Below are positions 14,591-62,350 of a DNA stretch of 64,000 nucleotides, one piece after another. This DNA is from Acholoe squamosa (taxonomy: Eukaryota > Annelida > Polychaeta > Phyllodocida > Polynoidae). The translations under genes were made by a program, and so were the position numbers. Every line of letters begins with the position of its first letter. Within the stretch, counting starts at the first letter, position 1. The notes beneath the pieces are model-generated. The model saw nothing but the letters and a program-made list of their open reading frames with translations. It had not been told where the DNA came from and did no database searches. The stretch is from the NCBI GenBank assembly GCA_949317995.1, contig OX439048.1:65849375-65913374 (forward strand), given 5' to 3'.

Positions 14591-14936
14591 TGAGCATTCA
14601 GTAACTGAGGAAGATTCCAGATGCCTTCAGGGACTGTCCGTAATATATTACCCAATATATCTTACCACCATAACTGAGTCAGTTTGGCAATCTCTGAAGG
14701 CAATGTGTTTATCCTGCTTTATACCACGATTTCTTGGTTACTAGTGCTTTTTGGTGGCTATTCCCATACACATATCTGTCGATATTGCACACCCTATAGG
14801 CTGTAACATGAATTTTGTAAGGTGTGCGGTTGTCCACGGATAACCCACACCCAGTGCCGTTATCCATGGATAACCTGCATGCCTCTCATGTCCTTCCATG
14901 TCATATGTTACATGTTAAAACCCATGATAGACTTGA

Positions 14937-15008
14937 CCAGGGCAGGGCTCGAACCTGCAGCCTAAGATTCCTAGTCCAACTCCCTATGCAGTGCGCCACA
15001 GTGACTGA
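14937..15008 (-). repeat. tRNA-like module 1, left arm
   Basis: The reverse complement has an A box near the 5' end (GTGGCGCACTGCATAGGGAG) and a B box GGTTCGAGCCC. Its mirror partner is 16969-17041. It is a SINE-type module, since arms do not fold into a standard cloverleaf. Confidence 0.6.
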
Positions 15009-15129
15009 CGTGTGATGGTCTGGGTTTGCTTGGTAGGCTTATAGAGGTAGGCGGGACGAGTCCTGGTCCGGGCGTATATTTTTGTTCCCTACTGTCAAAC
15101 ATAGCCAAGTCAAGACGGGCGCTGAAGGA

Positions 15130-15206
15130 GGAGACGCGGTGGTCTAGTGGTTAGCGCATCGCGCTCAGCCGTGAGAGGTCAGCGGATTGAGCCCTGGTCC
15201 TGGCGC
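15130..15206 (+). repeat. tRNA-like module 2, left arm
   Basis: The A box TGGTCTAGTGGTTAGCGC is strong and the B box GGATTGAGCCC is slightly altered. Its partner on the other arm is 16761-16836 on the minus strand. Confidence 0.6.
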
Positions 15207-15577
15207 ATGTTTTTTTCGCCGTGTGCGCTGTTGCTGTCCGCTGGCGGGCAACGAGGTTTATATCTAATCTGACAGTTAGTAACACGGTCCGGGCGCGTCT
15301 TTTTTTGCCGTGTGCGCTGTCGCTGTCCGCTGCCGGGCAAGGAGGTGTATTATACACAAACATAACAGCGAGACACATTGAAATCTTTAGCCGTGTGCCG
15401 CTGCCTGTCTGAGCCGAGACGGCCGCTGTCACTGTCCGCTGCCGGGCGACGAGGTGTATGTACCGATCATGTACAAACAATGGCTGGCATCGAGTCCCGG
15501 GGAGGGGGAATAATTTTTGTTTTCAAATTGAATTTATTGGTATTCTATTGGTTATTTTTTGGGTTCGTGGTATAAAA

Positions 15578-15638
15578 TAAGTAGACAATGGATAACTCAT
15601 TCACTAACACACACTCGTCATGAGTTATCCATTGATTA
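15578..15638. repeat. hairpin after a CGTGGTATAAA-type terminus
   Basis: GTAGACAATGGATAACTCAT pairs with ATGAGTTATCCATTGATTAC around a short loop. Just upstream is TTCGTGGTATAAAATAA, the same terminus as in the neighbouring foldback elements. The preceding 80 bp resemble 29420-29500. Confidence 0.75.
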
Positions 15639-16319
15639 CTTGTTCAATAATGCAGCAGTTAAATAACAGCAATATATAACTTATATTTCAACCTGCCTAA
15701 CCTCGAGAGACCTACATCATTCAGCCTCTGTCAGAAAGATCAAAGTAGTTCATATCCTACCTCCAGGGTTGACACTGAAGAGGTTCCATATGGGTTTCTT
15801 GAACATTAGACGTTTCGGAGCTTTGCTTCAAATAACAACAAATATAGCATAAGTCCACATCCTATATCCACGCACCAGGTTGTATATAGAGTGATCTCGT
15901 TTGTAGTAAGAGAATCACATATTATCGCAATATATCGTCTCTTCGAGACATGAGTACATTTCATCCAGCGATAAGTTTAATAATCCTGATTGGTGATGTT
16001 TGGCAGTGGTAGTCAAAAGGTGATATAGATACTAGGACTTCTCAAGTAGCTACTATGGAAGTGACTTTGAGACACAATGAAGTATTTAATTAAAAAAAAA
16101 AATTATAAATTTATAAGACTCTGTAGGTTTTGGCACTACAACTCTGGTTTTGTTGCCCATGGCCTGTCAGTGTAAGACATAGTTCAATGTTACCCTACCT
16201 TGACAATTTCCTGGTTCTGCCTTCATAATCTGGTAGTTAAACACACAATTTTGGAGTTCCCTATGAGTCTGTAGCCAGGGTTACATGTCACATCAACCTA
16301 GCAGTCAGGGATCTGTCAC
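15639..16319. other. foldback centre, no gene seen
   Basis: Sequence between the arms with no long open frame and no recognised domain. Confidence 0.4.
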
Positions 16320-16485
16320 ATCTTGACTGCCTATTGTCCTATAATGCACTCAGATGCATTCATGCATTATAGGACAACAGACAGTCTCGATGTGAAGAAG
16401 ATCGTTGTCTATTCTCTAAATAATGCACTAGTTATGGCTGTGGGAGTGCTCTAGACTGTATTGAGACATCGAGGGGCCTTATAGG
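16320..16485 (-). repeat. second copy of the CCTATAAGGCCCC repeat, inverted
   Basis: 16420-16485 is the reverse complement of 9736-9802 with few changes. The adjoining palindrome 16329-16385 pairs TGTCCTATAATGCA with TGCATTATAGGACA. Confidence 0.6.
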
Positions 16486-16760
16486 ATTCGAAGCCAGCCA
16501 TAGTGTGTGAACAGGTACATACACCTCCTCGCCCGGCAGCGGACAGTGACAGGGGCCGTCTCGGCTCGGACAGGCAGCGGCACATGGCTAAAGATTTCAA
16601 TGCGTCTCGCGGTTATGTTTGTGTAAAATACACCTCCTCGCCCGGCAGTGGACAGCGACGGCGGCACAGGGCGAAAAAAAAGATGCTTCTCGCGGTAATG
16701 TTTGTGTAAAATACACCTCGTCGCCTGGCAGCGGACAGCGCACACGGCAAAGAAAAAGGC

Positions 16761-16836
16761 GCGCCCGGACCGGGAATCGATCCGCGGACCTCTGACGGCT
16801 GAGCGCAAAGCGCTAACCGCTAGACCACCGCGTCTC
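16761..16836 (-). repeat. tRNA-like module 2, right arm
   Basis: The reverse complement shows A box TGGTCTAGCGGTTAGCGC and B box GGATCGATTCC and is 76 bp long. This is the best preserved tRNA-like unit of the element, but stems of a full cloverleaf are not convincing. Confidence 0.6.
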
Positions 16837-16968
16837 CTCCTTCATCGCCTGTCTCGGCTTGGCTATATTTGAATGCATCCCGCGGTTATGGTAGCCGACA
16901 GCCCGCAGTCGTCGCCTTGCCGGGCTTTGTATCATATCCAGAGTGGTTAGAACCAGGCATTTCTCGTC

Positions 16969-17041
16969 AGTCCCTGTGGCTCAGTGCATAGGGAGTTGGA
17001 TTTGGGATTCGAGACTGCAGGTTCGATCCCTACCCTGGCCT
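16969..17041 (+). repeat. tRNA-like module 1, right arm
   Basis: A box GTGGCTCAGTGCATAGGGAG and B box GGTTCGATCCC, correctly spaced for RNA polymerase III. Mirror of 14937-15008. Confidence 0.65.
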
Positions 17042-17503
17042 GGAATATTTCGTGGGTTTTAACATGTAACATATGACATGGAGGGACATGTATAACCTGC
17101 ACCGGGCACAGGTTATCCATGGATAACCCACACCGGGCACAGGTTATCCATGGATAACCGCATGCCTTACAAAGTTGATGTTACAGCCTACAGGGTGTGC
17201 AATATCGACAGATATGTGGATGGGAATAGCCACCAAAAAGCACCCAGTAACCCAGAAATCGTGGAATAATATGGGATAATCAAAAATGGCAAAGACGAAT
17301 ACATGACAACCTGCAAGCGAGGTCCTGCTATATACCATAGCTACCCCTATGGCTTAATGCCATAACTCTGAGGAATAATTCATATTAAACCAGTTGTAAA
17401 CTACACATTGTTAGGTTTAATATTCATTTACCTGTGTCATTCTTTGGAGTTTCAAATCACAGAGGTTGTGTGTAGTAGTAGTGCTTTAGGTGCCCTAAGA
17501 AAC

Positions 17504-21475: not shown

Positions 21476-23302
21476 CAGATTTGGGACCAAGTACTGCTGG
21501 GTTATTTGCTTGTATAGACATGTAGTGCCCCCCCCCCACACACACACGGAGAACGCCTACAGGGTGTTGCGCATAATGGAAAAGGTAGTTTTGCCTCAGC
21601 AGTGCCTCACCTGCAGTAGTCACTTTTTTAACAGTCAGGACTGTTTTTTTGTTGTTGCTCAGAATTAGCCAGGTGCAAGAGAATTGTGATGTGAGTAGGT
21701 AACTTTTCAAGGGTAGTCAAGTACCTTCCCATAACTATGATAGCTACTTAAAATGATAGCAGAAAAGAAAGAGTCAGGCAAGGAAGTACCTCGATCTTTG
21801 TTCAACACAGTTCACTTTTTTAACAAGGCAGGTTGCTTTTCATGTTTTTTGGACGTGTTTTTACATTTGGCCTAATGAGCTGTTATGTTCATTGGAATAA
21901 CAGGGGTGTAGGAAAAAAGGGAGTGGGGGGCCTTGGCCCCCTCAATCATAAAGGAGAGGGGGTCTGATCTGCCTGAGCCCCCCCCCCCCAAGAAAAAAAA
22001 ATAAAAGAAGAAAATTCATAATAAATTGGACAAGAAGCTAGAACGTTGCATTTTAAATTAGATTGATATAGTAATCCAATAGGAGAATGGGGGCCTGAGC
22101 CACAAATCAAACATAATATTCAACAAAATTACTATACACATTCTATATAGGTGTATATAGGCGCCATTACGCTTGAACCAACAGTCTAATGTGATTGTAG
22201 TGGGGCCCATGCTGCCCCCCCCCATGAGGATTTTCTTCCTATGCCTCTGAATAATGGTATATAACTTTAATATGGTAAGTCGAAGTTCATGGGTGAAAAC
22301 AGAGTATGACTTTCAAGCGTTAAGTACCTACTTAGAACTCTGTTTAGCTTATATACAAGACCTTCCAAGGTGGAGTGAGTTCTTATTGAGTCTGTAGTAC
22401 CGGAGTAGACCAAACTTGTTGGTGGTGTTATTTGGTTATTTATTATCGGCTACCTATAGCTACCAGACTTCACATATACACGCTGGATAAAGGCCACCAA
22501 ATATGAATGGGTAAGTGAACACAACCCATTTTAAACATGTACTCAGAAAACCATAAATTATTATTGTCATTTTAGAACTATCAAAATGCATGTGGATGAG
22601 AGCTAGACGGAACCATCGCCAAGCCTGGAGGAGCGATGGTAAGCGGTGGCACTGGTGTTGTGGTGGTGGAACTTTCAGAGTAGTTTCCCAAGCCCCCAAT
22701 GAAAACTGGGTCCCTAGTCTTAACTGGGGTTGGTCTTTGATATCTTAACTCTAGGACCTACCTATTTCTTGTGTATTGTTTTGAAATGTAAGATCATATG
22801 CCATGCCTTTGCTTTTTGTAACTTGATATCTGGGGCCCAGGAAGACTAGGCTGAGCCCTCTGCAGACTCAGTGGACATCAATTGCTGGGCCTCTGAATGA
22901 ATATATCAGGGCCCGGTTAGCTGGGTAGTTGAGAGCCAGCTACAATCAGGGTATCATAATCTTTGATTTAATAGCTAAAAAAAAAACAACAACAGGTCAC
23001 CCTTGAATAGTATTGGTAAAGATAACAGAAGTATAGGGATATTGTCTTGCAATCAAATGGGGAACAAGATATCAGACGTTGCCTTCCTGGGTCATTTGGC
23101 ATTTTTGCTTGCCTACAAAATATGACCACGAACTTTTCTATATATAGACAAAGGTTCATTAGTTCATGAGTAGCGGGCTTTATTTCATGTTTTCTCACTA
23201 ACAAATGAACAAAACCCATTCAGAACGATATAAAATGATGATTATTTACATGTTCATTTGGGGTTCTGCGAAATACGGGACTGGGTTATTTGAACTTATT
23301 CT
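21476..23302. other. no gene seen
   Basis: About 1.8 kb with only C-runs (21531-21545, 21975-21995) and no domain, splice-supported exon or inverted repeat that I could defend. It may be intergenic. Confidence 0.45.
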
Positions 23303-24390
23303 TTAACCCTTTAAAGGCTGCTGCTGCAGGAGTGCATCATGTCCATTGGTCGTCATGATGCACCCGTCATGTCCATTGGTCATCATGATGCACCCATGAT
23401 GTCCATTGGTCGTCATGATGCACCCAGGATGTCCATTGGTCGTTATGATGCACCCGTCATGTCCATTGGTCGTTATGATGCACCCAGGATGTCCATTGGT
23501 CGTCATGATGCACCCGTCATGTCCATTGGTCGTCATGATGCACCCGTCATGTCCATTGGTCGTCATGATGCACCCGTCATGTCCATTGGTCATCATGATG
23601 CACCCATGATGTCCATTGGTCGTCATGATGCACCCAGGATGTCCATTGGTCGTCATGATGCACCCGTCATGTCCATTGGTCGTCATGATGCACCCGTCAT
23701 GTCCATTGGTCATCATGATGCACCCAAGATGTCCATTGGTCGTCATGATGCACCCGTCATGTCCATTGGTCGTCATGATGCATGCATCATGTCCATTGGT
23801 CGTCATGATGCATGCATCATGTCCATTGGTCGTCATGATGCACCCAGGATGTCCATTGGTCGTCATGATGCACCCGTCATATCCATTGGTCGTCATGATG
23901 CACCCAGGATGTCCATTGGTCGTCATGATGCATGCATCATGTCCATTGGTCGTCATGATGCACCCAGGATGTCCATTGGTCGTCATGATGCACCCAGGAT
24001 GTCCATTGGTCGTCATGATGCATGCATCATGTCCATTGGTCGTCATGATGCACCCAGGATGTCCATTGGTCGTCATGATGCACCCGTCATGTCCATTGGT
24101 CGTCATGATGCATGCATCATGTCCATTGGTCGTCATGATGCATGCATCATGTCCATTGGTCGTCATGATGCACCCATCATGTCCATTGGTCGTCATGATG
24201 CACCCATCATGTCCATTGGTCGTCATGATGCACCCAGGATGTCCATTGGTCGTCATGATGCACCCGTCATGTCCATTGGTCGTCATGATGCACCCGTCAT
24301 GTCCATTGGTCGTCATGATGCACCCAGGATGTCCATTGGTCGTCATGATGCACCCAGGATGTCCATTGGTCGTCATGATGCACCACTGCA
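23303..24390. repeat. 30-bp satellite (GTCCATTGGTCGTCATGATGCACCC...)n inside a MITE
   Basis: The left MITE end TTAACCCTTTAAAGGCTGCTG leads into 34 full 30-bp units (23341-24360) and a partial one to about 24384. Units differ mainly in three to five bases near the end (GTCAT, AGGAT, ATGAT, ATCAT, TGCATCAT). It is open in several frames on both strands, including 385 and 402 codons, because 30 is a multiple of three. There are no spacers, so it is not a CRISPR array. Confidence 0.97.
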
Positions 24391-24764
24391 GTCTTTGCGA
24401 AAAGTTTTTCACAATGCAGGACATTCGGTCCTGCAGATTTCTAGTTCTGCAGGCCTGGTTCAATTTTCTCAGGACCGAAATATAATGAGTATCTAAGGGC
24501 ATTTTCTGCAAATAAAAAAAATATCATAAAGCAAGGATGTACACCCTATTTTTATCATGAAATCCATTAGGATTCATGAAGTTCTGAGAAAAAAAAATCT
24601 TTAATAATGGTCCGATTTGAATGCCGTAAAAAATGGCATGTAGCCTTAGGTCTGCTGATGACATCCAGACATTTGGTCCTACAGTCTGACAATTTCTGAC
24701 GGCCCGATAGCCATTCAGACGGCTATAGTGTCCGACGGGATTTGGCAGACTGCCACTGAAATGC
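24391..24764. other. degenerate palindromic sequence around CATTCGGTCCTGCAG
   Basis: CATTCGGTCCTGCA...GGCCTGG...ATT...GGACCGAA at 24422-24480 has relatives at 24665-24720 and 59300-59370, so it is a dispersed repeat. No gene. Confidence 0.45.
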
Positions 24765-33010: not shown

Positions 33011-33212
33011 CCTTTAAGTGCTGCTGATGCATTAGTGCATCATGCTCATTGGTTGTCATGATGCACCAATGAAGTGCTGGTGAGTCTGCTCCACTTCATT
33101 GGAGCATCATGCCGACCCTCCATGCAGGAGTATATATGTTTCAACCCCGGAGGGTCGTCATGACGACCAATGGCCATGATGCATTAATGTATCAGCGGCT
33201 CCTTATGGGTTA
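33011..33212. mobile_element. MITE of the CCCTTTAA family
   Basis: Left end ACCCTTTAAGTGCTGCTGAT, inner inverted CACCAATGAAGTGCTGG / CCACTTCATTGGAGCATC, right end CAGCGGCTCCTTATGGGTTAA. The right end runs directly into the 18-bp array. Confidence 0.8.
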
Positions 33213-33651
33213 ACAGGGAGGTTGGGGTTAACAGGAAGGTTAGGGTTAACAGGGAGGTTAGGGTTAACAGGGAGGTTAGGGTTAACAGGGAGGTTAGGGT
33301 TAACAGGGAGGTTAGGGTTAACAGGGAGGTTAGGGTTAACAGGGAGGTTAGGGTTAACAGGGAGGTTAGGGTTAACAGGGAGGTTAGCGTTAACAGGGAG
33401 GTTAGGGTTAACAGGGAGGTTAGCTTTAACAGGGAGGTTAGCGTTAACAGGGAGGTTAGGGTTAACAGGGAGGTTAGGGTTAACAGGGAGGTTAGCTTTA
33501 ACAGGGAGGTTAGCGTTAACAGGGAGGTTAGGGCTAACAGGGAGGTTAGGGTTAACAGGGAGGTTAGGGTTAACAGGGAGGTTAGGGTTAACAGGGAGGT
33601 TAGCGTTAACAGGGAGGTTAGCGTTAACAGGGAGGTTAGGGTTAACAGGAA
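33208..33651. repeat. 18-bp satellite (GGTTAACAGGGAGGTTAG)n with TTAGGG motif
   Basis: About 24 units, most reading TTAGGGTTAACAGGGAGG, some with TTAGCG or TTAGCT. The first unit overlaps the MITE's GGGTTAAC end. Open frames are a by-product of the period. Confidence 0.95.
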
Positions 33652-33671
33652 GCGTCAGGCCAGCAGTTTGC

Positions 33672-34012
33672 CTTAGGGAGTGAACAATCTTTTATCAAAG
33701 AGGGGGGGGGAGGGCTGATTGGTTTGCTTGTGGATGTGTGAAAAAAAAGATTAGGCCCAATCCCGTCTTGAGGGTCAAACTTTTTTTGACCCCCCAGAGG
33801 GCCGAAAATCGCATGTGAACGCACCCTTTTAACCTGTAGCAATGCGCAGGGTTTTTCGCTGAAAACAGGTAAAATTATTTTGACCCCCCTGGTCAAGGGG
33901 TTGAAAAAACTTCGGACTCTCAAGAGGGGGGTCAAATTATTTTCCTGCGAGTCCACATGCAAACCCACTAGCCCCCATCCCCCCTGTTGTTAAAAAATGA
34001 CCACTCCCTTAA
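33672..34012. mobile_element. MITE with TTAGGGAGTG / CACTCCCTTAA ends, copy 1
   Basis: The inverted ends TTAGGGAGTGAACAATCTTT and TTAAAAAATGACCACTCCCT flank G-run- then C-run-rich DNA. The ends match 35867-36092. Confidence 0.7.
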
Positions 34013-40285: not shown

Positions 40286-40874
40286 ACAAAAACTCGTCAG
40301 ACATTAGCTTTTGCCAGCAAAACCACTACTGGGCCGGCTATAATTGCTTGACTAATTGTTTGGCTGTAATCTTGGTGAATGGGACCTTAGGCTCATTTTG
40401 TTTTTTGTAGCTTGCAAATCAGACCAAAATTAAGGTTTTTACAGCCTAAGACATGAGGCATTCCTGTGCGTTAAGGTTTAAAGAGTTTAATAATATGAAC
40501 TAGTGAGTTCATTCTTGTTACACTAGAGTAACATACCAGCAACAACAATGGTGGGCCATGTATACTTGTATTTTAAAAGCTCCATATGCCAATACAGAGG
40601 ACCTACAGATCAATACGGCAAGAAAGGGTGACTTTTCAGATAATTGTTGATAAGGTTTTTGGACTTTTCTCAGGGAAATCTATTGAGATTGCAAATTCCC
40701 CTTGTCAGGCCTGCTATGTAATACCTATTATTTGAAGGATAATTATCTTGTGAATCCTTCGGTGTAAGTCATTTGCACAAATATTTTTAGAGACCCAATA
40801 AAATACTTTAAAAGAAAAAAGATCTCAGTGCATTGATAAATAATCAAGTTGATATTTGATATCTCTACTTGCAG

Positions 40875-42393
40875 GTTGCCTCTGCCTTCTGGAAGGAAAG
40901 TTCTCCTCCCTGTGATTGTATATATCGTCATCATGGGTGCAATATACATTACAAGTAGTAGCCTTGGGAAACCTCATCCGAAATATGTCCGGGAAAAGGG
41001 GATTTCATGTTCAAAACTCTGGTGGCCTGATGTTGAAATAGAACGGAGGTCTTTTGTCAACCTAACTGGGTATTTTCCTGGAAATGATTGCATCCATGAT
41101 CCAAAATACCAAGACAGAAGAAATCTTGCTCAAAAGGAACTTACCAGGATGCGACGTAGTTTAAAAGGCAATCGCACTTATGTAGGAGCTGCAAATGAAT
41201 ATTTTACTAAGCTTCTTAAGCCACCACCAGTGGAGATCGGACAATTTCAGCCAATTGATTTTACAGGTGGTTATGTGTTGTCTGCTTTCCACAACCGTAA
41301 AGATGAGTCTTTCCTAGGGTTGCGGGTTTTGTACCTTGTTCCCCTGGCAACACCTGACCTATATTGTCACACACTCTGTAATGGTGTATACACTACTATA
41401 AAGGGACGTCCAGAGTTCCTCAGCTTCTTTAATATAGCACATGAGAGATGCATCTGGGATCAGTACGTCCTTCACTGCCATTTTGCTGTAGAGTGTGATA
41501 ACGTTACTCATGTTTCCGTTACTTCGGATCCTTGCATCAAACCAACTAATATTCTACCTGTAGTGAAAGCTGATGCTGAGTCAGCAGCCCCAGGTTTAAT
41601 TGGAGGGTGCTTGAACCACATTTACAACATGACCACAAAACACATTCCTACAATCATCAACTTCTTTGAAACCTCTCTGTATTTTGGAGCAGAAAAGTTT
41701 TATCTTTACGGACACACTGGCATTGATGCTAATGTATCCAAAGTGCTGCAGTACTATGTGAAAAAAGGAATTCTACAGATCTACAACTATACCATTCCTG
41801 AGGACGTTAGCTCATTGTTTTACTTTGCACAGGTGTTACAGCATATGGACTGTACATTCCGTCACTCGAAGCAGATGGAGTACCTTTTGTTACTGGATCT
41901 TGATGAAGTCTTGTATCCTACCTACCAATCATCATACCGGGAAATCGTCAATCATCTTGATATATTTACTAGCACTACAGCAAGTGTGTCCCTACTCAGG
42001 ACTAGAACATATCCACCTCTTACATTAGAGTATCCTCACACAAGTAAAACTAACACTAATGATAAACAGATCCAGACAAAAGCCCATGGTGAAAACTATA
42101 GACTTTGCAGTGTTCCTACAGCAAAATTGTTGATAAGACCAAAGTTTGTTCTCACATCCAAAATTCATACGGTATCATGGACTCTTGCACCGTCTACACA
42201 AGGTACAGTGATTCCCAAGCACATTGCTACTGTTTTTCACACCATGAGCCCTGACTTTAACTGTCCAGCACATTTACGTATGCCATATTATGAAACTATA
42301 CCTATGAATAACACTCTGAACAAGAACTACCCACACATCAGGCAAAGAGTGAAAAATGTCTACTCACAGGTGCTTCGATTACGACTTAAATAA
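40875..42393 (+). CDS. glycosyltransferase family 92 (DUF23) protein, main exon
   Basis: One exon codes for about 505 residues. A type II membrane anchor lies at its start (VLLPVIVYIVIMGAIYI, about 40903-40955), then a stem, then the GT92 domain from about 41263 (YVLSAFHNR) to about 42330. Hallmarks: F-F-E-T-S-L-Y-F-G-A-E-K-F-Y-L-Y at about 41660-41707, the metal/nucleotide-sugar motif D-L-D-E at about 41896-41907, and H-x-x-S near the end. GT92 enzymes such as nematode GALT-1 transfer galactose to core fucose in the Golgi; the acceptor here is unknown. The exon starts after the acceptor CTACTTGCAG; the ATG at 40849 lies in the intron side of that acceptor and is probably not the start. Several N-x-S/T sites. 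The frame is intact, unlike everything else in the window. Confidence 0.88.
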
Positions 42394-48518: not shown

Positions 48519-49096
48519 GTTGAAAAAGACCTTGAGTACATAATCTTGTTCTTGTAGTACTTCTTGTACTGGTGCACCCTGCCCGGTGGTATAGTTCTGA
48601 ATAGCCCGGTAGGTATACAGCACAAAATTACCTTTCTAACAATACAGCACATGACATGTTGACTATAATATTAGGTTCTGAAAATTCAGGTTAATATATA
48701 TTTGAAATGTTTTCAAATGTACTCTATTTGAAATGTTTTCAAATGTACTCTAAAGCATAAGTCTGTGCCAACCATTTGAATGAAAAAGTAAAAATTCATT
48801 CTCCTGGCCGATTTTACTATTTTTCCCAACTTCACTACCTCATTTATACAAGAAGATATCATGATAAGGTGAATTTAATGCTTTGTCATGATAGACATAC
48901 ATTTCGTCTCTAATTTCCTGTCCTCTAATCATAGATGTGTTAGTTCAGGCATGAGTGACAGCATTTTCACTATATAATTTTGAAATTATTCAAGACTTAC
49001 CTGTAAGTTGAGGTACGTTCACGCTAGGTCCCCGCTAGGTTCCATTGGTATAATCTTTAATATAATAACCTATCAAGAGTGCTCTTTGGACTATTA
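48519..49096. other. no gene seen
   Basis: Includes a 21-bp direct duplication (TATTTGAAATGTTTTCAAAT) at 48698 and 48725. Otherwise unassigned. Confidence 0.45.
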
Positions 49097-49195
49097 CTGG
49101 AGGTTAATTCAAAAGGTCCTGGGATCGCTACCTCAGCAATCTTAGGAATTATTCTGCCTTATCAAATTAAGCGATCTTAAGAGTAGATTGTATTG
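49097..49195 (-). repeat. left member of a 100-bp inverted pair bracketing the LINE
   Basis: Reverse complement of 57676-57775 with about ten differences (CTGGAGGTTAATTCAAAAGG, CTTAGGAATTATTCTG). A third partial copy is at 57255-57312. Confidence 0.85.
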
Positions 49196-49460
49196 CTTTT
49201 TCACAGCCAGCACTAAGATCGCAGTCTCAGCCCTCCTACACCAGGAACAATGGCACAAGGTTAACATCGGTAGAAGACTGCAACGGCGGGATATGCTGGT
49301 TTTTGAGCGTTTCAGTGTTACTATACCATATTGAGAGGTACAAACTCAACTATAAAGCGACAGTGAGCAAATATAGGACAAAAAGAGACCTTAACATACC
49401 TCATGAACTCAGCAAGGGACATCTAAAGTTTTTCTTGAAACGCCGAGTTGAAAATTTTCA

Positions 49461-49471
49461 AAGATGGCGCC
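49461..49471 (+). promoter_or_regulatory. YY1-like motif in the LINE 5'UTR
   Basis: AAGATGGCGCC matches the YY1 core AAGATGGC; it recurs at 51271-51281 in the second unit. A similar core in the first coding exon of unit 1 (about 49719) is changed in unit 2. Human L1 uses a YY1 site at the start of its 5'UTR, so a role in transcription is possible. Confidence 0.4.
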
Positions 49472-49642
49472 GCCCATGACAACAAACCCCGGTACAGTTT
49501 ATAACCAATAATGTCATGAACACATTGGACCAAAGGACTTCCTTACATTCAAATTAGTCGTTTTTCAACTGCTAGAATATTTTAACACGCAGTGGAACGC
49601 CTTAAATAGCCATTGAAACCCTCAAGTTTAATACGAAAATAG

Positions 49643-51289
49643 ATGTCAAATCGTACTACTAGAAATACGCATCGCTCCATAAGTTCTACGCCGGACTCTA
49701 CAGGGTCAAGGTCATCCAAGATGGCAGCTTCCGTTCTAAACAAAAATGACACTACGCACGATGAAAAAATCGACTCTGAAGACGAGGAAACCCATTTCCT
49801 GCCAGCTTTGAAGTACAAAGCACCCCCAAAGGCTATAATTGACAAAATTAATGAGTTGGATGAAAGACTCAAAGCCCAGGAAAGTATTTCAAGGCGAACA
49901 ATCAACCTCCTTAATGGTATGGAAAAGAGAATGTTTGGCCCAAAGGGAATACCTCAAGACAAGACGGCTACTATCCCCGAGCTGGCAACAAAAATGAGTG
50001 AATATGATGCTACACTCTCTCAACACAGTGATAAAATAGATAAAAATATCACCAATATATCGAATCTAAGTGAGGTATCTGACAAACACACTGACCAATT
50101 CACCAAAGTAGATGGGGAAAGGAAAAAGAGAATCCTGATTATTGAAGGCCTAGATGAGGACCGCCCCGGTAGTCTACGGGATACTCTAGACCAATTGACA
50201 AATGATCTAGGCCTGGACTTCAATAATTCAGTCGCCCAAGTTCTCTACAGAAGAGGGAAAAAACAAACATTAAATGAAAACCAGAGAAGGAACCCAAACT
50301 TTAAACCACGTAAGAGACCAGTGGTAGTTATTTTCTCCTCTGCCCACTACAAAATACAAATCTTCTCTAAAATCAAAAACTTGCGAGGTAACATCACCTG
50401 GAAGGGCATTCACCTTACTGATGATATTAGTCCTGAAGAAAAAAACATGCAAAAAGACCTTCGATCCATACAAGCACTTGCAAAAAGCAAAGGCATTGAA
50501 TGCACAATTAAAGGTACACAAATCGTAATCCAAGGTCACCTATATGCATACAAAGACATTGGTAATTTACCTATGGACCTGTCATTGAAAAATGCTAAAT
50601 CTGTACCAACACCGGATGGTGTAGCATTTCAGGGCGAACACTCGGTCTACTCGAACCTCTACAAATGTGATATACACTTTGAGGGCCACCAATACGATTC
50701 AGTGGAACGAGCCTACCAAGCTAAAAAGGCAGTAGTATGCAACCAAGTCCACATACTGAGAAGGGTAAACATGGTAAAAACACCCCTAGATAGTATGTAT
50801 GCTGCAAAGTCATGCAAGTTAAGCAACGAATGGTACGACGAGGATGAAGCTGTGATGAAACGACTACTAGAAATAAAATTCTCCCAACCTGCACTGCTAC
50901 ATGAGCTAACACAGACACAGGGAAAATATTTGTACGAGGCTACCCTCAACAAGACATATGGATCTGGGTTTTGTCTAGGACAAAAGGACACTATAACCAT
51001 CCAAAATGTAGCAAAAAATGAACACGAGTGCGCAAACAAACTCAGAGAAATGCTGATGAGCATTAGATACATGCACACAAATGAGAAACCCTCAACCGGG
51101 ATATGCTGGTTTTTGAGCATTTCAGTGTTACTATACCATATTGAGAGGTACAAACTCAACTATAAAGTGACAGTGAGCAAATATAGGACAAAAAGAGACC
51201 TTAACATACCTCATGAACTCAGCAAGGGACATCTAAAGTTTTTCTTGAAACGCCGAGTTGAAAATTTTCCAAGATGGCGCCGCCCATGA
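49643..51289 (+). CDS. LINE ORF1 protein, unit 1: coiled coil, RRM-like, NADAR domain, foreign tail
   Basis: 548 codons. Residues about 1-60 are Ser/Thr-rich and polar. About 60-160 form a heptad-rich coiled coil. About 165-310 resemble the RRM and C-terminal domain of L1-type ORF1 proteins (KKRILIIEGL, then RPVVVIFSS and a D-x-S-P-E-E motif), which bind RNA and act as chaperones. About 325-475 read as NADAR: S337-N338 (YSNLY), E355 in SVERAYQ, W397 followed by VM-K-LL-IKF, E432 and Y439-G-x-G, then N465-K-L and S-I-R. The normal end is lost at 51092; the last 65 or so codons come from the 5'UTR of unit 2 read in frame, so this tail is probably not functional. Unit 2 shows the native C-terminus. 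The NADAR call is by motif order, not by search. Confidence 0.85.
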   Translation: MSNRTTRNTHRSISSTPDSTGSRSSKMAASVLNKNDTTHDEKIDSEDEETHFLPALKYKAPPKAIIDKINELDERLKAQESISRRTINLLNGMEKRMFGPKGIPQDKTATIPELATKMSEYDATLSQHSDKIDKNITNISNLSEVSDKHTDQFTKVDGERKKRILIIEGLDEDRPGSLRDTLDQLTNDLGLDFNNSVAQVLYRRGKKQTLNENQRRNPNFKPRKRPVVVIFSSAHYKIQIFSKIKNLRGNITWKGIHLTDDISPEEKNMQKDLRSIQALAKSKGIECTIKGTQIVIQGHLYAYKDIGNLPMDLSLKNAKSVPTPDGVAFQGEHSVYSNLYKCDIHFEGHQYDSVERAYQAKKAVVCNQVHILRRVNMVKTPLDSMYAAKSCKLSNEWYDEDEAVMKRLLEIKFSQPALLHELTQTQGKYLYEATLNKTYGSGFCLGQKDTITIQNVAKNEHECANKLREMLMSIRYMHTNEKPSTGICWFLSISVLLYHIERYKLNYKVTVSKYRTKRDLNIPHELSKGHLKFFLKRRVENFPRWRRP

Positions 51290-51452
51290 CAACAAACCCC
51301 GGTACAGTTTATAACCAATAATGTCATGAACACATTGGACCAAAGGACTTCCTTACATTCAAATTAGTCCTTTTTCAACTGCTAGAATATTTTAACACAC
51401 AGTGGAATGCCTTAAATAGCCATTGAAACCCTCAAGTTTAATACGAAAATAG

Positions 51453-52955
51453 ATGTCAAATCGTACTACTAGAAATACGCATCGCTCCATAAGTTCTACG
51501 CCGGACTCTACAGGGTCAAGGTCATCCAAGATGACAGCTTCCGTTCTAAACAAAAATGACACTACGCACGATGAAAAAATCGACTCTGAAGACAAGGAAA
51601 CCCATTTCCTGCCAGCTTTGAATTACAAAGCACCCCCAAAGGCTATAATTGACAAAATTAATGAGTTGGATGAAAGACTCAAGGCCCAGGAAAGTATTTC
51701 AAGGCGAACAATCAACCTCCTTAATGGTATGGAAAAGAGAATGTTTGGCCCAAAGGGAATACCTCAAGACAAGACGGCTACTATCCCCGAGCTGGCAACA
51801 AAAATGAGTGAATATGATGCTACACTCTCTCAACACAGTGATAAAATAGATAAAAATATCACCAATATATCGAATCTAAGTGAGGTATCTGACAAACACA
51901 CTGACCAATTCACCAAAGTAGATGGGGAAAGGAAAAAGAGAATCCTGATTATTGAAGGCCTAGATGAGGACCGCCCCGGTAGTCTACGGGATACTCTAGA
52001 CCAATTGACAAATGATCTAGGCCTAGACTTCAATAATTCAGTCGCCCAAGTTCTCTACAGAAGAGGGAAAAAACAAACATTAAATGAAAACCAGAGAAGG
52101 AACCCAAACTTTAAACCACGTAAGAGACCAGTGGTAGTTATTTTCTCCTCTGCCCACTACAAAATACAAATCTTCTCTAAAATCAAAAACTTGCGAGGTA
52201 ACATCACCTGGAAGGGCATTCACCTTACTGATGATATTAGTCCTGAAGAAAAAACCATGCAAAAAGACCTTCAATCCATACAAGCACTTGCATAAAGCAA
52301 AGGCATTGAATGCACAATTAAAGGTACACAAATCGTAATCCAAGGTCACCTATATGCATACAAAGACATTGGTAATTTACCTATGGACCTGTCATTGAAA
52401 AATGCTAAATCTGTACCAACACCGGATGGTGTAGCATTTCAGGGCGAACACTCGGTCTACTCGAACCTCTACAAATGTGATATACACTTTGAGGGCCACC
52501 AATACGATTCAGTGGAACGAGCCTACCAAGCTAAAAAGGCAGTAGTATGCAACCAAGTCCACATACTGAGAAGGGTAAACATGGTAAAAACACCCCTAGA
52601 TAGTATGTATGCTGCAAAGTCATGCAAGCTAAGCAACGAATGGTACGACGAGGATGAAGCTGTGATGAAAAGACTACTAGAAATAAAATTCTCCCAACCT
52701 GCACTGCTACATGAGCTAACACAGACACAGGGAAAATATTTGTACGAGGCTACCCTCAACAAGACATATGGATCTGGGTTTCATCTAGGACAAAAGGATA
52801 CTATAACCATCCAAAATGTAGCAAAAAATGAACACGAGTGCGCAAACAAACTCGGAGAAATGCTGATGAGCATTAGATACATGCACACAAATGAGAAACC
52901 CTTACCGACGGCTGAGGAAATCAGACTTGAAAATGCGGCAGCCCAAGGAGACTAA
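51453..52955 (+). pseudogene. LINE ORF1, unit 2: native length (500 codons) but with one premature stop
   Basis: Same protein as unit 1 with a handful of substitutions. A TAA at 52293-52295 replaces the Lys codon seen in unit 1 and cuts the protein after residue 280, before the NADAR domain; the rest stays open to 52955. It shows the native C-terminus, which ends about 25 residues after the NADAR domain. Here the NADAR motif near the end reads N-K-L-G, which is nearer to the family pattern than N-K-L-R in unit 1. A retained Met at 52383 could in principle start a 190-residue NADAR-only product; that is speculative. Confidence 0.88.
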
Positions 52956-53372
52956 CTACTGTATTAATCCTACCATTATATGATCGCTCTTTCCCTATGG
53001 CTCTGATATCAATGTACATTTTTTTATTTGGTCTTTTTTATTTGGTCTAACCACTGTAGTACCTATTGCAATAACTATTATATATAGTATATAATTATTT
53101 AACCTCAAATCATGTTAGTACTTGTCAAACTGTAACAGTATATCCCGTGCCTGAAAGGTCTTCACCAGGATGTTATAATAAAGCTTATCAATGTATTCAT
53201 ATATTGGGGGCGGCATAAAGGCCTATGTCCCTTGTTGGATACTGAATTTGATTCTCTCTATATTGAGAAGGGGGGGGAATGAAACTCTGTACCGAAAAAA
53301 ATCAATTGTAGAAATTTTGACTCTCTGTTCACATGTTGACCATCATATAACAAACTATATCCATGATGATAC
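52956..53372 (+). other. spacer between LINE ORF1 and ORF2
   Basis: About 417 bp, AT-rich, with a G-run near 53271. No coding signal. How ORF2 is translated is not evident. Confidence 0.5.
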
Positions 53373-56236
53373 ATGCAATATAGTAACATGATAAGCCTTA
53401 AGGGCACCAGAGGTTTGCGCTTCATGCATTTGAATGCTCGTAGTTTTAAGGCAAACTATACCACATTATGTGCCGAAATATACCCAGCAAATCTAGAAAT
53501 TTTTTCTTTCTCTGAGACGTGGCTAAAAGATGAGGATGATGAGATGAACTATCAATTTAATAATTATACCCGCTATAGACTAGATACACAAGTAATTGAT
53601 AGAAAAGGAAACATAAAAACTGGTGGTGGAGTCTTTGTGAAACATGGATTATCACATGATTATAACATAATCCCACTACTGAATAGATCTGACAAAGACA
53701 TCGAAATTCAACATGTTATAATCACCAAAAGCCATATGAAACCTATAATTTTTCTAAATGTTTATAGACCCCTTGATGGGGACAAAAATGAATTTGTTGC
53801 TATATTTGAAGGAATTATTTAAAACATTGAAAATAGGGATAAATTTGAAATTGTGGCCATGGGCGACTTCAACCTCAATGCGGCTAATGATAATGATGTT
53901 TTAAATAATTTACTTAATCGATTGAAAACCTATGGTCTGAAACAAGAGATTCATGAAGGTACATGGAAGAATGCTATCCTAGACTTAATCTTTACAAATA
54001 TCAGACCAAATTTTATAAAGACAGGGGTCTCCAACAACTACATATCTGATCACCTTCCAATATATCTAATTAGAAAAATATGGAAAATTCCGGAAGAAAA
54101 GGTTTATATAACTGGACGATCATATTCACGCCTTGCTGATGATGTTTTATTAAATGAATTTGATAATTATGACTGGGATACTTTTAATAACACAAATGAT
54201 GTAAATTGTGCATGGTTCCATTACGAAAAAGCTATACGCGAAATACTTGATAGACATTGTCCTGTCAACAGGTTTTTAGTGTCCAAACATAGAGATCCAT
54301 GGATGAACCAAAATGGCTTTGAGTTAATTCGGGAAATAAATTCAAAATTATGGAAAGCTAGGAAATCAGGCAGAGAAGCAGATTGGAAAATATCCGCAAA
54401 CTTTCGAAATAAAGCAAATAAAATAATAGACAAAGCCAGGAAAAACTTTTTCAAACAACAAATGGAAACTTATAAAAATGATCATAGGAAATTTTGGCGA
54501 GTCATAAACAATATACTACCTGGTCAACCAAATAGAGCAAAAGACATATGTTTAATTGATCATGACAATAATGACACTTTGGTTCCTCATGACAAAATCT
54601 CTGATTTTATCAACCAATATTTCGTAAATATTGGTCCTGTACTTGCTAAAGATTTAAATATCCCATGGAAACCATATGATGATTGTATAATTGACAAAAT
54701 AGAACCTTTTACTACAAATGTGCAAGAAGTCAACAAACTTATTCATGACATACAGGTAATCAAATCCTCGGCAATTAACAATATATCTACATCAGTACTA
54801 AAAAAGTGTTCAAACATGACCCTGGAAAACTGGTTAAGCTTTTCAACCTTTCTTTTCAAACAAATACGGTACCAGATTCCTGTAAAGGGTCTAAAGTCAC
54901 CCCTATACCCAAGTCGGGTAATTTAAAACTTGTTAATAACTATAGACCTATTTCTCTGTTACCATTGCCCTGCAAATTAATTGAAAAAATTGTTCATAAT
55001 AAAGTTTATGGTTTTTTGTTGAAAGAAAATATCCTGACCAAACACCAAGGTGGCTTTAGACCAGGTTATAGCACAATTGATACCCTGGCAAGGTTTACTG
55101 ATGAAATCAAAAGAAATATAAATATGGGCAATTCTACAATAGCTTCTTTTATAGACCTGAGTAAGGCTTTTGACACCGTAGACCACTCGATCCTTCTCAC
55201 TAAGCTTAACCATTATGGTATAAGATCAGACAATTATCACTGGTTTGAAAACTATCTTACAGGTAGAAAACAGATTACTATAGCAAATGGTGTTCAATCT
55301 GAGAGGGAAAGTGTGGTATGTGGGGTACCACAGGGATCAATTTTAGGTCCCTTACTTTTTCTCCTATACATAAATGATGTAACTAATTGTATTAAAAACT
55401 GTAAAATCAAGCTCTATGCAGACGATACTGTGATATATTCAACTCGTACCAACTTTAATATTGCCAAGCGAGAGCTACAAAGTGATCTGGAAATTTATTA
55501 CACTTGGTGCATCCAGAATAAGCTTTCTATAAATGTAACTAAAACCAAAGTAATGATTTTCTCATCGAGTTCAAAAAAATTGAATACCCTAACAGCCAAT
55601 ATAACTCTGAACAATCATTTGCTACAGGTTGTGCCTAGTTATAAATATCTTGGTGTAACTCTTGATTCACTATTACATTATAACCTGCACCTGAGCAACC
55701 AAGCTAAGATAATTACCTATAAGTTATACAAACTTTGCCTACTACGCAAATATCTAGATGTAAAACTTGCAATAAGAATATACAAAACTGCTATCCTACC
55801 TTATATGGAATATGCTGACATTTGTTTTATGAGTACCTATGATAAATATCTAGACCCACTCCAGTACTTCCAGAATAGATGTATAAAAGTTTGTCTACAA
55901 GTACCACACCTAACCAGTACAAATCTCATACACAATATGAATAAGATTAATTTTCTATGTGATAGACGATACATTCACCTTGTCAACTATATGTATACTA
56001 GATCTCGTGATAATGATTTTCTTGACAATAGACCCATTAGAACTAGACTACATGATGCACCAACCTTAACTGTCACAACTCCTACTTGCCTAATGTATGC
56101 AAGGAGCGTAGAATATCTTGGTGCTGTAAGCTGGAATGCCTTGACAATGGGTAGGAGAAATGCCCCTAGTCTGGAACAGTTTAAAACTGAATCCAAAGGC
56201 TACTTGGCAGGTCTTTTCCCCTATGTCAGGCCATAG
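53373..56236 (+). pseudogene. LINE ORF2: APE endonuclease and reverse transcriptase, one stop and one frameshift
   Basis: The endonuclease runs from about 53373 to 54090 with MHLNARS, F-S-E-T-W-L, NVYRP, GDFNLN and S-D-H-L-P-I in the order of AP-endonuclease-type LINE domains; it nicks target DNA. An in-frame TAA at 53820-53822 interrupts it just before GDFNLN. A basic linker follows (54100-54500). The frame shifts at about 54800-54840, after which RT is open to 56236: PIPKSG...NYRPISLL, S-F-I-D-L-S-K-A-F-D, GVPQGSILGPLLFLLYIND, and the catalytic L-Y-A-D-D at about 55414-55428. The C-terminal region (W-N-A-L near 56131) matches the CR1/Jockey group. Only two lesions in 2.9 kb suggest recent death. 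Confidence 0.93.
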
Positions 56237-56819
56237 CGCAATACTTTTTTAATAGATCTTCAAACATATTAATTTGTTACACTGTATCACCTTGTGAATT
56301 TGAGTGAATGACTATGCTGTATGTCTTCCAATTGATTGATTTTTTTTTTCTTCCTCATGAGTTATCAAATTGATTATATAAATCTCTCAAATCTTCCCTC
56401 CCTCTTTCTCATTTATTTTTCTTATAACTTAATATAATGTGTCAACTGTATTGCAAACCATCGAAAAGAAGAAAGGTAGAACCAGAAGAATCAACCCTTA
56501 CACAGAATATTGTGGGGATGAGGTTCTCTTCCTTCATTGTTATCTCGATGTAATATATATCATTTTCTTACACCATGTCTTTTTTGGTTACTGATTGGCA
56601 TTGATTACCTTACTGATATATGCTATGTTTCCTGGAGAATTCAAAATACAAGCTATTATGTACTTATCAATGTACCTTATGCTTATGAAACTATTATTTA
56701 TTACCGGTAACATTACGCATGCAAATATATACTATCAATGTACCAAACAACCAAAGGATTCTCATGAATGTATAGAAATCTTGGGATAATAAAGTAAATT
56801 CAAACCAAAAAAAAAAAAA
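56237..56819 (+). other. LINE 3'UTR with polyadenylation signal and poly(A) tail
   Basis: AT-rich, ends AATAAAGTAAATTCAAACC then 13 A. Marks the 3' end of the insertion. Confidence 0.85.
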
Positions 56820-57675: not shown

Positions 57676-57775
57676 GCAAGACAGTCTAATCTTAAGATGG
57701 CTTAATTGGATAAGACAGAATAATTCCTAAGATCGCTGAGGTATCGATCCCAGGACCTTTTGAATTAACCTCCAG
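57676..57775 (+). repeat. right member of the 100-bp inverted pair
   Basis: Pairs with 49097-49195; see there. It touches the start of the beta-helix pseudogene at 57776, and its end AACCTCCAG could act as a splice acceptor, though this is unproven. Confidence 0.85.
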
Positions 57776-59290
57776 TGGATTTGGCATATTACTATAATGA
57801 AATCATGGCAGATGGAGGGGCTATCAATGTATTTCATATAGATACTAACATTGAACACTGTTTTTTTCATAAATAATACTGCCTGAAGAAATGGATAAAC
57901 TATCTTTATCCAAGTTGTTACCAATTATTTGTTTTCAAACACATCAATAGAAGGCAACTATAAAGGTTTCATACTTTTTGTGTTAGAAGGATATGTCAAG
58001 ATTGAACATTCAGAATTCATATCCCATCTATCTGGACACAACATGATATCTGTCAGTTTGAGAGATGATGACTACAATATCAGGGTATTTCAATCTTCCT
58101 TCAGTTGTCCACAAAACAATCGGTTAGTATCAAATGGTACTATTGTGTCAGATGGACTAGTATTCAAGCATTTTCAATTGGGCTGCACTGCATGTGCTGA
58201 TTCTTATAGCTTTGTCAATGGTTCATTTTATATTTACAACGCTTCAAATATTAACAAGAAAGAGATAACTTGCCATCACTGTCCTTGTGGTGTTAACTGC
58301 AACTCTGGCGAGCCCCGTGTGAAACCATATTTCTGGGCTTATGAACATGAGGGAAGAATGTTTGCCATGAGATGCCCAAGTTCCTACTGTCTTGAATCAA
58401 AGTTTGGTGAGACCTCAGTCTTAGGTGCCAGCTGCAGAAATAAAAGAGTTGGTATTCTCTGTGGGAAATGCAGTCAAGAATATTCAGAAGCTCTATTCTC
58501 ATCCAAGTGTATAAAAGATGATAATTGCAATGGGTATTTGATATCCAGCCTGGTCAAATCCTGTTGTTTTATATATTCTATATTTCTTCTCTTCCAAAAG
58601 GATTTTGTCGGTGCAATTATGAACCATATGTCCATAGATATGTGTTATGTATGTTGGAGAAATAGTGAGAAAAACTCAATCAGGAAAGTAGAAAAAGAAA
58701 ATGATTTCGTAAGTAGGAAGGAGGGTGGCGGATTCATCATAATTTTATTCTACTACATCCTAGATGCATCAATCATATCCATTCCAGCTCTTCATCCACA
58801 GAAACCTGACCACTCAATCTCAAAATTCAAATCTGCTTTAGGCAGTATTTCCAAATTTAGGATTGAATTTTTTAATTTGGCAGCGGGGGAAGTTTGCACC
58901 TTTCCGGGACTTGCCCCAGAAGGTAAACTCTAATTAAATGCAGCATTTGTACCTCTCCAGGAGGTCGTTACACAAACAGCGATTTTACGTTACGTTATTT
59001 TCTCCCAAATCAGCGTACACCTTTAAGACTTCTTTTACTGTTTGTGTTTCTGTTCACCATACATTGGCTTCGAAGATCCCTCATAATTATAAGAAGAACA
59101 TCGGAGCTAAACTATTAAAAAGGGCCGTCTCAGGATCAGTGACAGCCTTAATGTTCTCATACCAGAAACCTGCAGTGACTACTTGTGCACTTCTCTCATG
59201 TGTTTCATATAGAGACACTATATTTTGTATCTGTCCATTTTTCTTGGTTCTCATCTTTGCTCCTGGTTTACTACAAAGTCGTAAGTTTTC
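57776..59290 (+). pseudogene. Cys-rich beta-helix / multi-pass membrane protein, degenerate
   Basis: The upstream part (57776-57928) reads like beta-helix repeats (GGAIN...; F-F-I-N-N-T-A) but has a frameshift in a T-run (57861-57867) and stops at 57884-57886 and 57896-57898. The main open segment to 58933 has beta-helix coils, a Cys-rich block (C-x2-C ... C-x2-C-x-C-G-x-x-C), then R-V-G-I-L-C-G-K-C-S-Q-E-Y-S-E-A-L-F-S, and weakly hydrophobic stretches. It lacks an ATG at its left edge. After the stop the sequence goes on in other frames to about 59290 with KALLS-type membrane helices (MFSYQKPAVTTCALLSC). This order matches a large uncharacterised family of animal proteins with an extracellular beta-helix and a multi-membrane C-terminus; function unknown. 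It could instead be part of a real gene with sequencing errors, but the number of lesions favours a pseudogene. Confidence 0.65.
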
Positions 59291-61312: not shown

Positions 61313-61807
61313 GGTTAATACAGCCTTGATGATTGACTGAGTATCGTCTCAATATTGGCAAATTGCCACTGAGAGCACTCATTACACATGGAGTTACCAT
61401 AATAGAATATATCTGTATTTTTTATGCGATCCCATGTCAATTTCTCTCCTTTTAGCTTTCCATAGTATGACATCTAATGCAAACTATCTAATGAAACTGG
61501 TTTCTCCTGATTATCAATCAAAGAAACTGCTTGGATCTAGAGAGTTTAAAAGGTCAGTCAGGGTTTTGGGATCTGGGAAGATTTGAACTAACAGACAAAA
61601 TCTCTGATATCAAATGTATGCCAATGTGCACACCCCTCCTTTGGGGTGTGAGCCCCATTCAGCATACTATGAAGTATCAAATACTTTCAAAGTTTTTTTT
61701 TTTCCAGAAACCCTTTTGTTTATATGTGAGCCACAGTTTCATTCCATAAAACCTTATTGAGTGATTAGTGGCTGTCCCCAGATAGCCACTTATAGAGGCT
61801 TCCTTGA
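61313..61807. other. no gene seen
   Basis: Unassigned; TTATTGAGTGATTAGTGGCTGT at 61753 also occurs near 30361 and marks a dispersed repeat. Confidence 0.45.
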
Positions 61808-62350
61808 ACGGCGAACCCTTTGAGGGCGACTGGTGTATTAATGCTTCATGCCCATTGGTTTTTCATGATGCATTAATGCGTCATGCCCATTGGTCGTCAT
61901 GATGCATTAATGCGTCATGCCCATTGGTCGTCATGATGCATTAATGCGTCATGCCCATTGGTCGTCATGATGCATTAATGCGTCATGCCCATTGGTCGTC
62001 ATAATGCATTAATGCGTCATGCCCATTGGTTGTCATGATGCATTAATGCGTCATGCCCATTGGTCGTCATGATGCATTAATGCGTCATGCCCATTGGTCG
62101 TCATGATGCATTAATGCATCATGCCCATTGGTTGTCATGATACACCAATGAGGTGCTGGCAAGACTACTCACCAGCACTTCATTGGAGCACCGTGCTGAC
62201 CCTAGGGAGATGATACATTAACTCCCAGAGGGTCGGCATGATGCTCCAATGAAGTGCTGGGTAGCAGTCTCACCAGCACTTCATTGGTGTATCATGACAA
62301 CCAAAAAGGGCATGATGCAATTAATGCATCAGCGGCCCTTAAAGGGTTAA
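61808..62350. mobile_element. MITE of the CCCTTTAA family containing a 34-bp satellite
   Basis: Left end ACCCTTTGAGGGCGACTGGT. 61847-62125 has eight units of 34 bp (TCATGCCCATTGGTCGTCAT + GATGCATTAATGCG). Then come the usual inverted modules and right end CATCAGCGGCCCTTAAAGGG + TTAA at about 62330-62350. This is the most complete copy of the family. Confidence 0.9.

Follow-up and report, generated by a model that had tools for sequence, protein, structure and literature searches.

A selected NADAR domain in the L1-type ORF1 protein of LINEs, a putative ADP-ribose N-glycosidase

Introduction

Why would a retrotransposon carry a NADAR domain in its ORF1 protein? The accessible text of earlier work describes NADARs that remove ADP-ribose from guanine in vitro (PMC11543638, PMC11125620) and, in six edible clams, guanine N2 ADP-ribosylation of DNA and an activity that makes this modification (PMC11209040), and states the role of animal NADARs as unclear (PMC11125620). 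We analysed a 64 kb stretch of DNA, called the window here (contig C14 of genome G000; assembly of 1.48 Gb in 63 contigs), which holds a LINE on the + strand at about 49287-56819. An initial annotation, made from the letters of the window, had recognized in this element an ORF1 with a coiled coil, an RRM-like part and a NADAR domain.

Results

ORF1 ends in a NADAR domain

Sequence profiles and a structure model support that architecture. Residues 332-475 of the first of two ORF1 copies (window 50636-51067) matched the NADAR profile PF08719 with 47.1 bits (E 4.1e-12), and residues 22-165 of the ORF at 52383-52955, in the second copy, matched with 58.7 bits (E 1.1e-15); the curated cut-off is 35.1 bits. 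The motif order listed in the initial annotation is present, and its domain bounds were roughly right, with the domain extending slightly further, to about residues 326-482 of copy 1 (50618..51088, +) by PF08719 profile, fold and residue alignment. In copy 2 the profile places the domain at 52446..52883 (+). E. coli YbiA (2b3w) was reached by single-sequence phmmer only at E 0.0025; a profile built from ten NADARs, of which eight belong to LINEs, reached 8bau at 4.2e-25 and 2b3w at 7.5e-22. The AlphaFold model of the window domain has the NADAR fold, with block-mean pLDDT of 91–98 across the domain and 59 for the last seven residues, and its structural matches include viral NADARs. Arg468 of copy 1 is Gly in all seven fetched copies of the window family.

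Upstream of the NADAR domain, copy 1 contains a coiled-coil region (residues 61-161; 49823..50125, +; model helices 63-98 and 111-161), and coiled-coil proteins are among the profile matches. It is followed by an L1-ORF1p-like RRM (residues 162-262) and C-terminal domain (CTD; residues 263-318; together 50126..50596, +), assigned by a fold match of the model to human L1 ORF1p, which the sequence profile reached only at E 0.0025, amid coiled-coil matches. As modelled, the window ORF1p has the type II (L1-type) order of coiled coil, RRM and CTD, plus the C-terminal NADAR.

The window element is a dead LINE copy with a duplicated ORF1

Self-comparison revealed a tandem duplication with an offset of 1810, whose first copy (49287..51096, +) comprises the 5’ leader and ORF1 to about residue 485. 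The two copies are identical at 1788 of 1811 positions, so the two NADAR copies seen by the initial annotation are real and yet stem from one duplication, not from independent elements. The duplication is head-to-tail (49287-51396) and precedes the full element; it could have arisen by template switching or unequal recombination. ORF1 copy 1 (residues 1-487; 49643..51103, +; junction from the duplication alignment) is an open frame that past residue 487 continues into the copy 2 leader as far as 51289. ORF1 copy 2 (51453..52955, +) has an in-frame TAA at 52293-52295.

ORF2 is represented by a 5’ part (53373..54926, +), endonuclease-like with an SDHLPI motif and broken by a stop at 53820-53822, and by a 3’ part in a different frame (54779..56236, +) that encodes the reverse transcriptase (RVT_1, E 1.3e-40). 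The element ends in poly-A (56807..56819, +), preceded by AATAAA at 56788. The two window pieces of the 5’ part had no Pfam match; the endonuclease profile PF03372 matched in the intact relative L013 (29 bits, cut-off 24.5). By sequence, the window element is an APE-type LINE, with a reverse transcriptase and poly-A of its own and an AP-like endonuclease recognized by profile in intact relatives only. No 6-mer to 16-mer is shared around the assumed ends as a target-site duplication, the true 5’ end being uncertain. The copy is dead: a stop interrupts ORF1 copy 2 in frame, ORF2 is broken both by a stop and by a shift of frame, and ORF1 copy 1 reads on into the copy 2 leader.

Inverted repeats of 101 nt (92%) at 49096-49196 and 57676-57776 flank the LINE, which seems to be nested within a larger TIR element. 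Elsewhere the window contains minisatellite arrays at 23189-24508 (30-nt unit), 33102-33767 (18 nt) and 61795-62202 (34 nt); CCATTGGTCGTCATGATGCA is common to the 30-nt and 34-nt units and also occurs in a repeat family dispersed through the window. A nested imperfect palindrome of ~2.5 kb (14744-17243) has arms of 113–150 nt that are 85–93% complementary. LTR-type reverse transcriptase and RNase H domains lie at 1808-2650 and 5401-6015, with an integrase-core match under the cut-off, and an open frame at 40849-42393 encodes a GT92 glycosyltransferase domain (E 4.9e-22).

The fusion is widespread in the genome

Were the NADAR domain missing from other copies of the element, the fusion would be a peculiarity of this locus. 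A genome search with the window ORF1 gave 3422 candidates. Scoring covered 88 of these: in 86 the match extends at least to residue 482, in the other two it reaches 454 and 455, and 73 of the 88 have no internal stop. Other LINE copies with the same fusion, which the initial annotation had proposed to look for, thus occur across the genome. A separate search with PF08719 gave 3224 first-look candidates, and all 150 that were scored exceeded the cut-off. The two lists do not overlap and together comprise at least 238 NADAR places, 216 of them without internal stop and 160 of these with open frames of at least 400 aa; fusion to a window-type ORF1 is demonstrated for the 88 scored ORF1 places.

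Among 20 of the 150 PF08719 places, chosen for inspection non-randomly and for the most part from the upper end of the list, 18 are LINE-like and two are uninterrupted stand-alone NADAR frames (L009:3755-4420 (-), 222 aa; L010:3444-4184 (-), 247 aa). The nearest relatives of these two are a database protein (66–67% identity) and a protein of the annelid Ridgeia (66%), and both carry the residues of stand-alone NADARs at the active-site positions counted below.

NADAR-ORF1s accompany three groups of reverse transcriptase

A reverse-transcriptase match was present in the same stretch at 17 of the 18 LINE-like places (at L014 just as a piece of 311 aa); the exception is L011, with its split ORF1, which had none at the length used. 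Reverse-transcriptase motif and score set three groups: A, window-like, with G(V/I)PQGS (L012, L013, L015, L019, L020, L021, L025, L027, L028); B, with GVLQGGVLSP (L016, L017, L023, L024); and C, with GTRQGCCLSP (L018, L022, L026), which L014 joins by its NADAR. The window reverse transcriptase scored 179–276 bits with group A, 82–85 with B and 32–42 with C. One ORF2 per group was compared with known elements: that of group C (L026) matched human L1 ORF2p at 1e-96, that of group A (L013) matched R2 (1.4e-13) better than L1 (2.3e-8), and that of group B matched L1 at 1.5e-26 and R2 at 7.6e-19. Tx1 belongs to the L1 superfamily, and the ORF2 of the window element is not of this Tx1/L1 type. Its GVPQGS motif, which we take as a pointer to a CR1/L2-type reverse transcriptase, and its type II ORF1 suggest a CR1/L2-type element. 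In the reverse-transcriptase tree, the branches that carry B and C have lengths of 3.7 and 5.6 changes per site; a branch separates group A from the rest in 40% of bootstrap trees, so that the unity of this group is unsure.

The pairing also holds when approached from ORF2. Among 25262 candidates for reverse transcriptases of the window lineage, 89 were scored, and at least 38 of these are preceded on the same strand, within 6 kb, by a NADAR-ORF1, 36 of them at a distance of 1742–1914 nt. For places with a stop-free open frame of at least 900 aa the proportion is at least 28 of 41. We read upstream of six of the 13 intact ORF2 places that have no listed ORF1: two (L039, L040) hold a 5’-truncated ORF1 that still includes the NADAR, one (L036) has, on the opposite strand, a fragment of another NADAR element, and three gave no ORF1 match. 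No NADAR-less ORF1 was seen in these six upstream regions.

The ORF1 modules vary among the groups. An RRM-CTD profile made from group A and database ORF1s, with no member of C, found the group C ORF1 at 4e-16, and none of 100 shuffled group C controls was listed at E ≤10. The group B ORF1 was not listed by this profile. Residues 1-375 of the group C ORF1 had no PDB match by sequence. The group B ORF1 C-terminus is SGNH-esterase-like (SASA, E 0.0025, 17.9 bits, under the cut-off of 24.8), with nothing under E 0.9 in a sequence search of the PDB. In one group B example (L024:1874-4144 (+)) a single 757-aa frame encodes the NADAR and, after it, the esterase-like C-terminus, and a 1167-aa ORF2 frame follows directly.

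Trees leave one capture or several compatible with the data

The NADAR tree was built on 145 columns; its branches are long, its bootstrap is not settled, and its 60 stand-alone rows, drawn from the 120 best of 4580 profile matches, favour one NADAR subfamily. Two sequences are absent from both the tree and the residue counts: L011, where a stop splits the domain, and L018's partial second NADAR. The sole starred grouping (100/99) separates A, B and five database ORF1s, as one NADAR clade, from the rest. A single clade of all LINE NADARs is not rejected (p-AU 0.715, likelihood 15.4 above the free tree), nor is group C together with the stand-alone genes L009 and L010 (p 0.709, likelihood 14.1 higher), so both one capture and two are compatible with group C. 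A clade of A and the database rows without B is likewise not rejected (p 0.351, likelihood 9.6 lower), so that transfer between A and B remains compatible. Within A, the subgroups L013/L015, L012/L019 and L025/L027/L028 are common to the NADAR and reverse-transcriptase trees, which suggests joint inheritance of the two domains.

The domain is under purifying selection in the window family

Selection was assessed with the window copy and its four closest copies (86–88% identical to the window), taken from seven fetched ORF1 copies of the window family that were chosen for open frames, a choice that favours functional copies. The NADAR dN/dS was 0.04–0.12 in 10 of 10 pairs; in the same pairs it was 0.03–0.14 for the RRM and 0.22–0.46 for the N-terminal 60 residues. 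Of the 28 window-family pairs, the remaining 18 have a saturated NADAR dS. We read these values as pointing to a sustained need for the NADAR in the window family. From few differences, two group B pairs gave 0.18 and 0.10 for the NADAR and 0.40 and 0.38 for the region before it, and one group C pair gave 0.38 and 0.33, respectively; selection on the NADAR would be suggestive or neutral in these groups. The stand-alone genes L009 and L010 gave a NADAR dN/dS of 0.14.

Glutamates are kept and the pyrophosphate site is changed

The ligand residues of 8bau (PMC11543638), whose chain numbering is two higher than that used here, were mapped by profile alignment onto 31 LINE rows and 122 stand-alone rows (the 120 best database matches plus L009 and L010). 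The LINE rows are 11 from group A, including both window copies, seven from the window family, four each from B and C, and five database ORF1s (P0001-P0005); the rows within B and within C are nearly identical to one another and the window contributes two rows, so that the 31 rows represent fewer independent events. E43, W89 and E125 are each present in 31/31 LINE and 122/122 stand-alone rows. The stand-alone rows also have K50, K75, R79, D130 and W133 in 122/122, whereas the LINE rows have K in 21, R in 8 and M in 2 at K50; K in 19 and M in 12 at K75; R in 1, D in 13, K in 11, H in 4 and A in 2 at R79; and D in 20, N in 7 and H in 4 at D130. W133 is kept in 12 of the 31, and R93 is variable in both sets. 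According to the accessible text of the 8bau paper, R79 contacts the ADP-ribose pyrophosphates, with K75 as its partner (PMC11543638). In other work, YbiA and SNA-3 are described as requiring an aspartate and a tryptophan of the D130/W133 kind.

By this alignment the ribose-coordinating glutamates are held and the pyrophosphate site is changed in LINE NADARs. The window copy keeps E355, K362, W397 and E432, including the counterparts of E43, K50 and E125, and has an altered ligand pocket, with M385, K389, N436 and Y439 at the K75, R79, D130 and W133 sites; it is still a NADAR by score and fold despite these differences from the ADP-ribose contacts of 8bau. Among the nine window-family rows, R79 is K in eight; all nine have N or H at the D130 site and Y at the W133 site. 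A basic contact may remain in this family, because lysine mostly replaces R79. We read the pattern as that of a putative enzyme whose ligand has shifted; the main rival is a binding module.

Discussion

The best explanation of these results is that selection maintains the NADAR as part of the LINE machinery, in many LINE families of this genome. We lean, at somewhat less than even confidence, toward a fuller reading in which the window holds a dead two-ORF LINE whose L1-type ORF1p carries a selected NADAR, likely an ADP-ribose N-glycosidase that shields the element from a host ADP-ribosyltransferase. It builds on observations: the domain, its predicted fold, the architecture, the spread, the pairing with reverse transcriptase, the purifying selection in the window family and the kept glutamates. 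From these we infer a mechanism. By analogy with L1 ORF1p, the protein would probably coat the element RNA as a coiled-coil multimer, which would bring many NADAR domains onto that RNA and the nascent cDNA; there the domain would most likely act as an N-glycosidase that takes ADP-ribose, or a related N-linked adduct, off bases, and such removal would protect the element from the putative host transferase. The initial annotation’s suggestion that the element may use the domain to strip ADP-ribose from its RNA or cDNA agrees with the kept glutamates and the purifying selection, which are compatible with such a role.

Several findings count against the enzyme: the retention of R79 in one of 31 LINE rows, the M at K75 in 12 and at K50 in two relatives, and the changes at D130 and W133 in all nine window-family rows. 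In exon-by-exon searches of the element’s own genome, DarT (PF14487) had no match, with one of 14 control genomes positive, and a Scabin-like transferase (PF22596) had none, with 0 of 14 positive, so that an enzyme of the latter kind may still be present. The step that invokes a host transferase is made less likely by these searches. A bolder form, in which LINEs of several reverse-transcriptase lineages use the ORF1p NADAR to repair guanine ADP-ribosylation of RNA or cDNA and so defeat a host defence against retrotransposons of which we met no description, the shared change at the R79 site marking a LINE-specific substrate, is speculative and in our judgement less likely than not.

The changed residues bear most directly on the idea that the NADAR is no enzyme but a module that binds nucleic acid, a host protein bearing ADP-ribose or a protein partner, thereby aiding RNP assembly or targeting. 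R79 is changed in 30 and W133 in 19 of the 31 LINE rows. The variation at K75 and D130 adds weight to this idea at the enzyme's expense, yet it stays on the doubtful side. C. elegans SNA-3 is described as using NADARs in an RNP context, one of its three lacking the YbiA catalytic residues. Retention of both ribose-coordinating glutamates in 31/31 rows, across three different reverse-transcriptase groups, would be unexpected of a domain that does nothing but bind.

The changed phosphate site would fit a changed ligand, and roles in destroying small NAD-derived signals of host defence (cyclic ADP-ribose and its kin) or NAD-type RNA caps, in place of base adducts, have been proposed for viral NADARs in the accessible text of PMC9503650. 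The RNA-binding type of the fusion partner points instead to a nucleic-acid or RNP-bound substrate, and we consider this alternative improbable. The YbiA function, a riboflavin-pathway N-glycosidase hitch-hiking with no role in transposition, is more improbable by far: both window copies match the corresponding equivalog TIGR02464, at 49 and 59 bits, but under its cut-off of 73.7 bits, and a dN/dS of 0.04–0.12 would be unexpected for such a passenger of a mobile element. A chance fusion or assembly artefact, which the duplicated and broken window copy might suggest, is ruled out by the 88 scored ORF1 places, 86 of which match through the NADAR and 73 of which are stop-free.

If the preferred reading, a glycosidase acting for the element, is right and the domain is active, a retrotransposon would here carry an eraser of nucleic-acid ADP-ribosylation, something of which we met no earlier description, and this would suggest that animals use nucleic-acid ADP-ribosylation against selfish RNA. 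The many open natural NADAR-ORF1 variants in this genome make the question testable at the bench.

Comparison with known systems

A NADAR partner was called unusual in the initial annotation. This holds in part: one sentence in the accessible text of PMC12477816 already reports NADAR in the ORF1s of several Crassostrea gigas Tx1 LINE families and suggests processing of RNA intermediates. Among the openly accessible papers examined, we found no report of NADAR in non-Tx1 LINEs or of a NADAR-esterase ORF1, and no selection or catalytic-residue analysis of LINE NADARs. The oyster elements share with ours a NADAR in a LINE ORF1; our L1-superfamily group C (L018, L022, L026) may correspond to them, whereas groups A, which includes the window, and B have reverse transcriptases unlike the Tx1/L1-type group C. 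The same source describes a NADAR likewise captured by a retrotransposon, an Ectocarpus Gypsy element; unlike the LINE ORF1s, its carrier is an LTR element of a brown alga with the domain in the N-terminal region of Pol.

The window ORF1 has the coiled coil, RRM and CTD order of type II ORF1p, reported in the L1, CR1, L2 and R1 clades, for which exchange of ORF1 between lineages has been proposed (PMC4120745); as far as that paper’s accessible text goes, none of its five ORF1 types includes a NADAR. Esterase ORF1ps, including those of RTEX, are covered in the accessible text of PMC3905857; the group B ORF1 also ends SGNH-like, but adds a NADAR before the esterase-like part. The P. nicotianae NADAR (8BAU) and the DarT1-linked NADARs, as described in the accessible text of PMC11543638, differ from the LINE rows, in which R79 is kept in 1/31 and W133 in 12/31, and unlike them the LINE NADARs are fused to ORF1p, with a putative activity. 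Animal positive-strand RNA viruses (PMC9503650, accessible text) are, like these LINEs, selfish RNA-based elements with a NADAR; they are viruses and not retrotransposons, and the likeness of their domain to that of the LINEs is structural.
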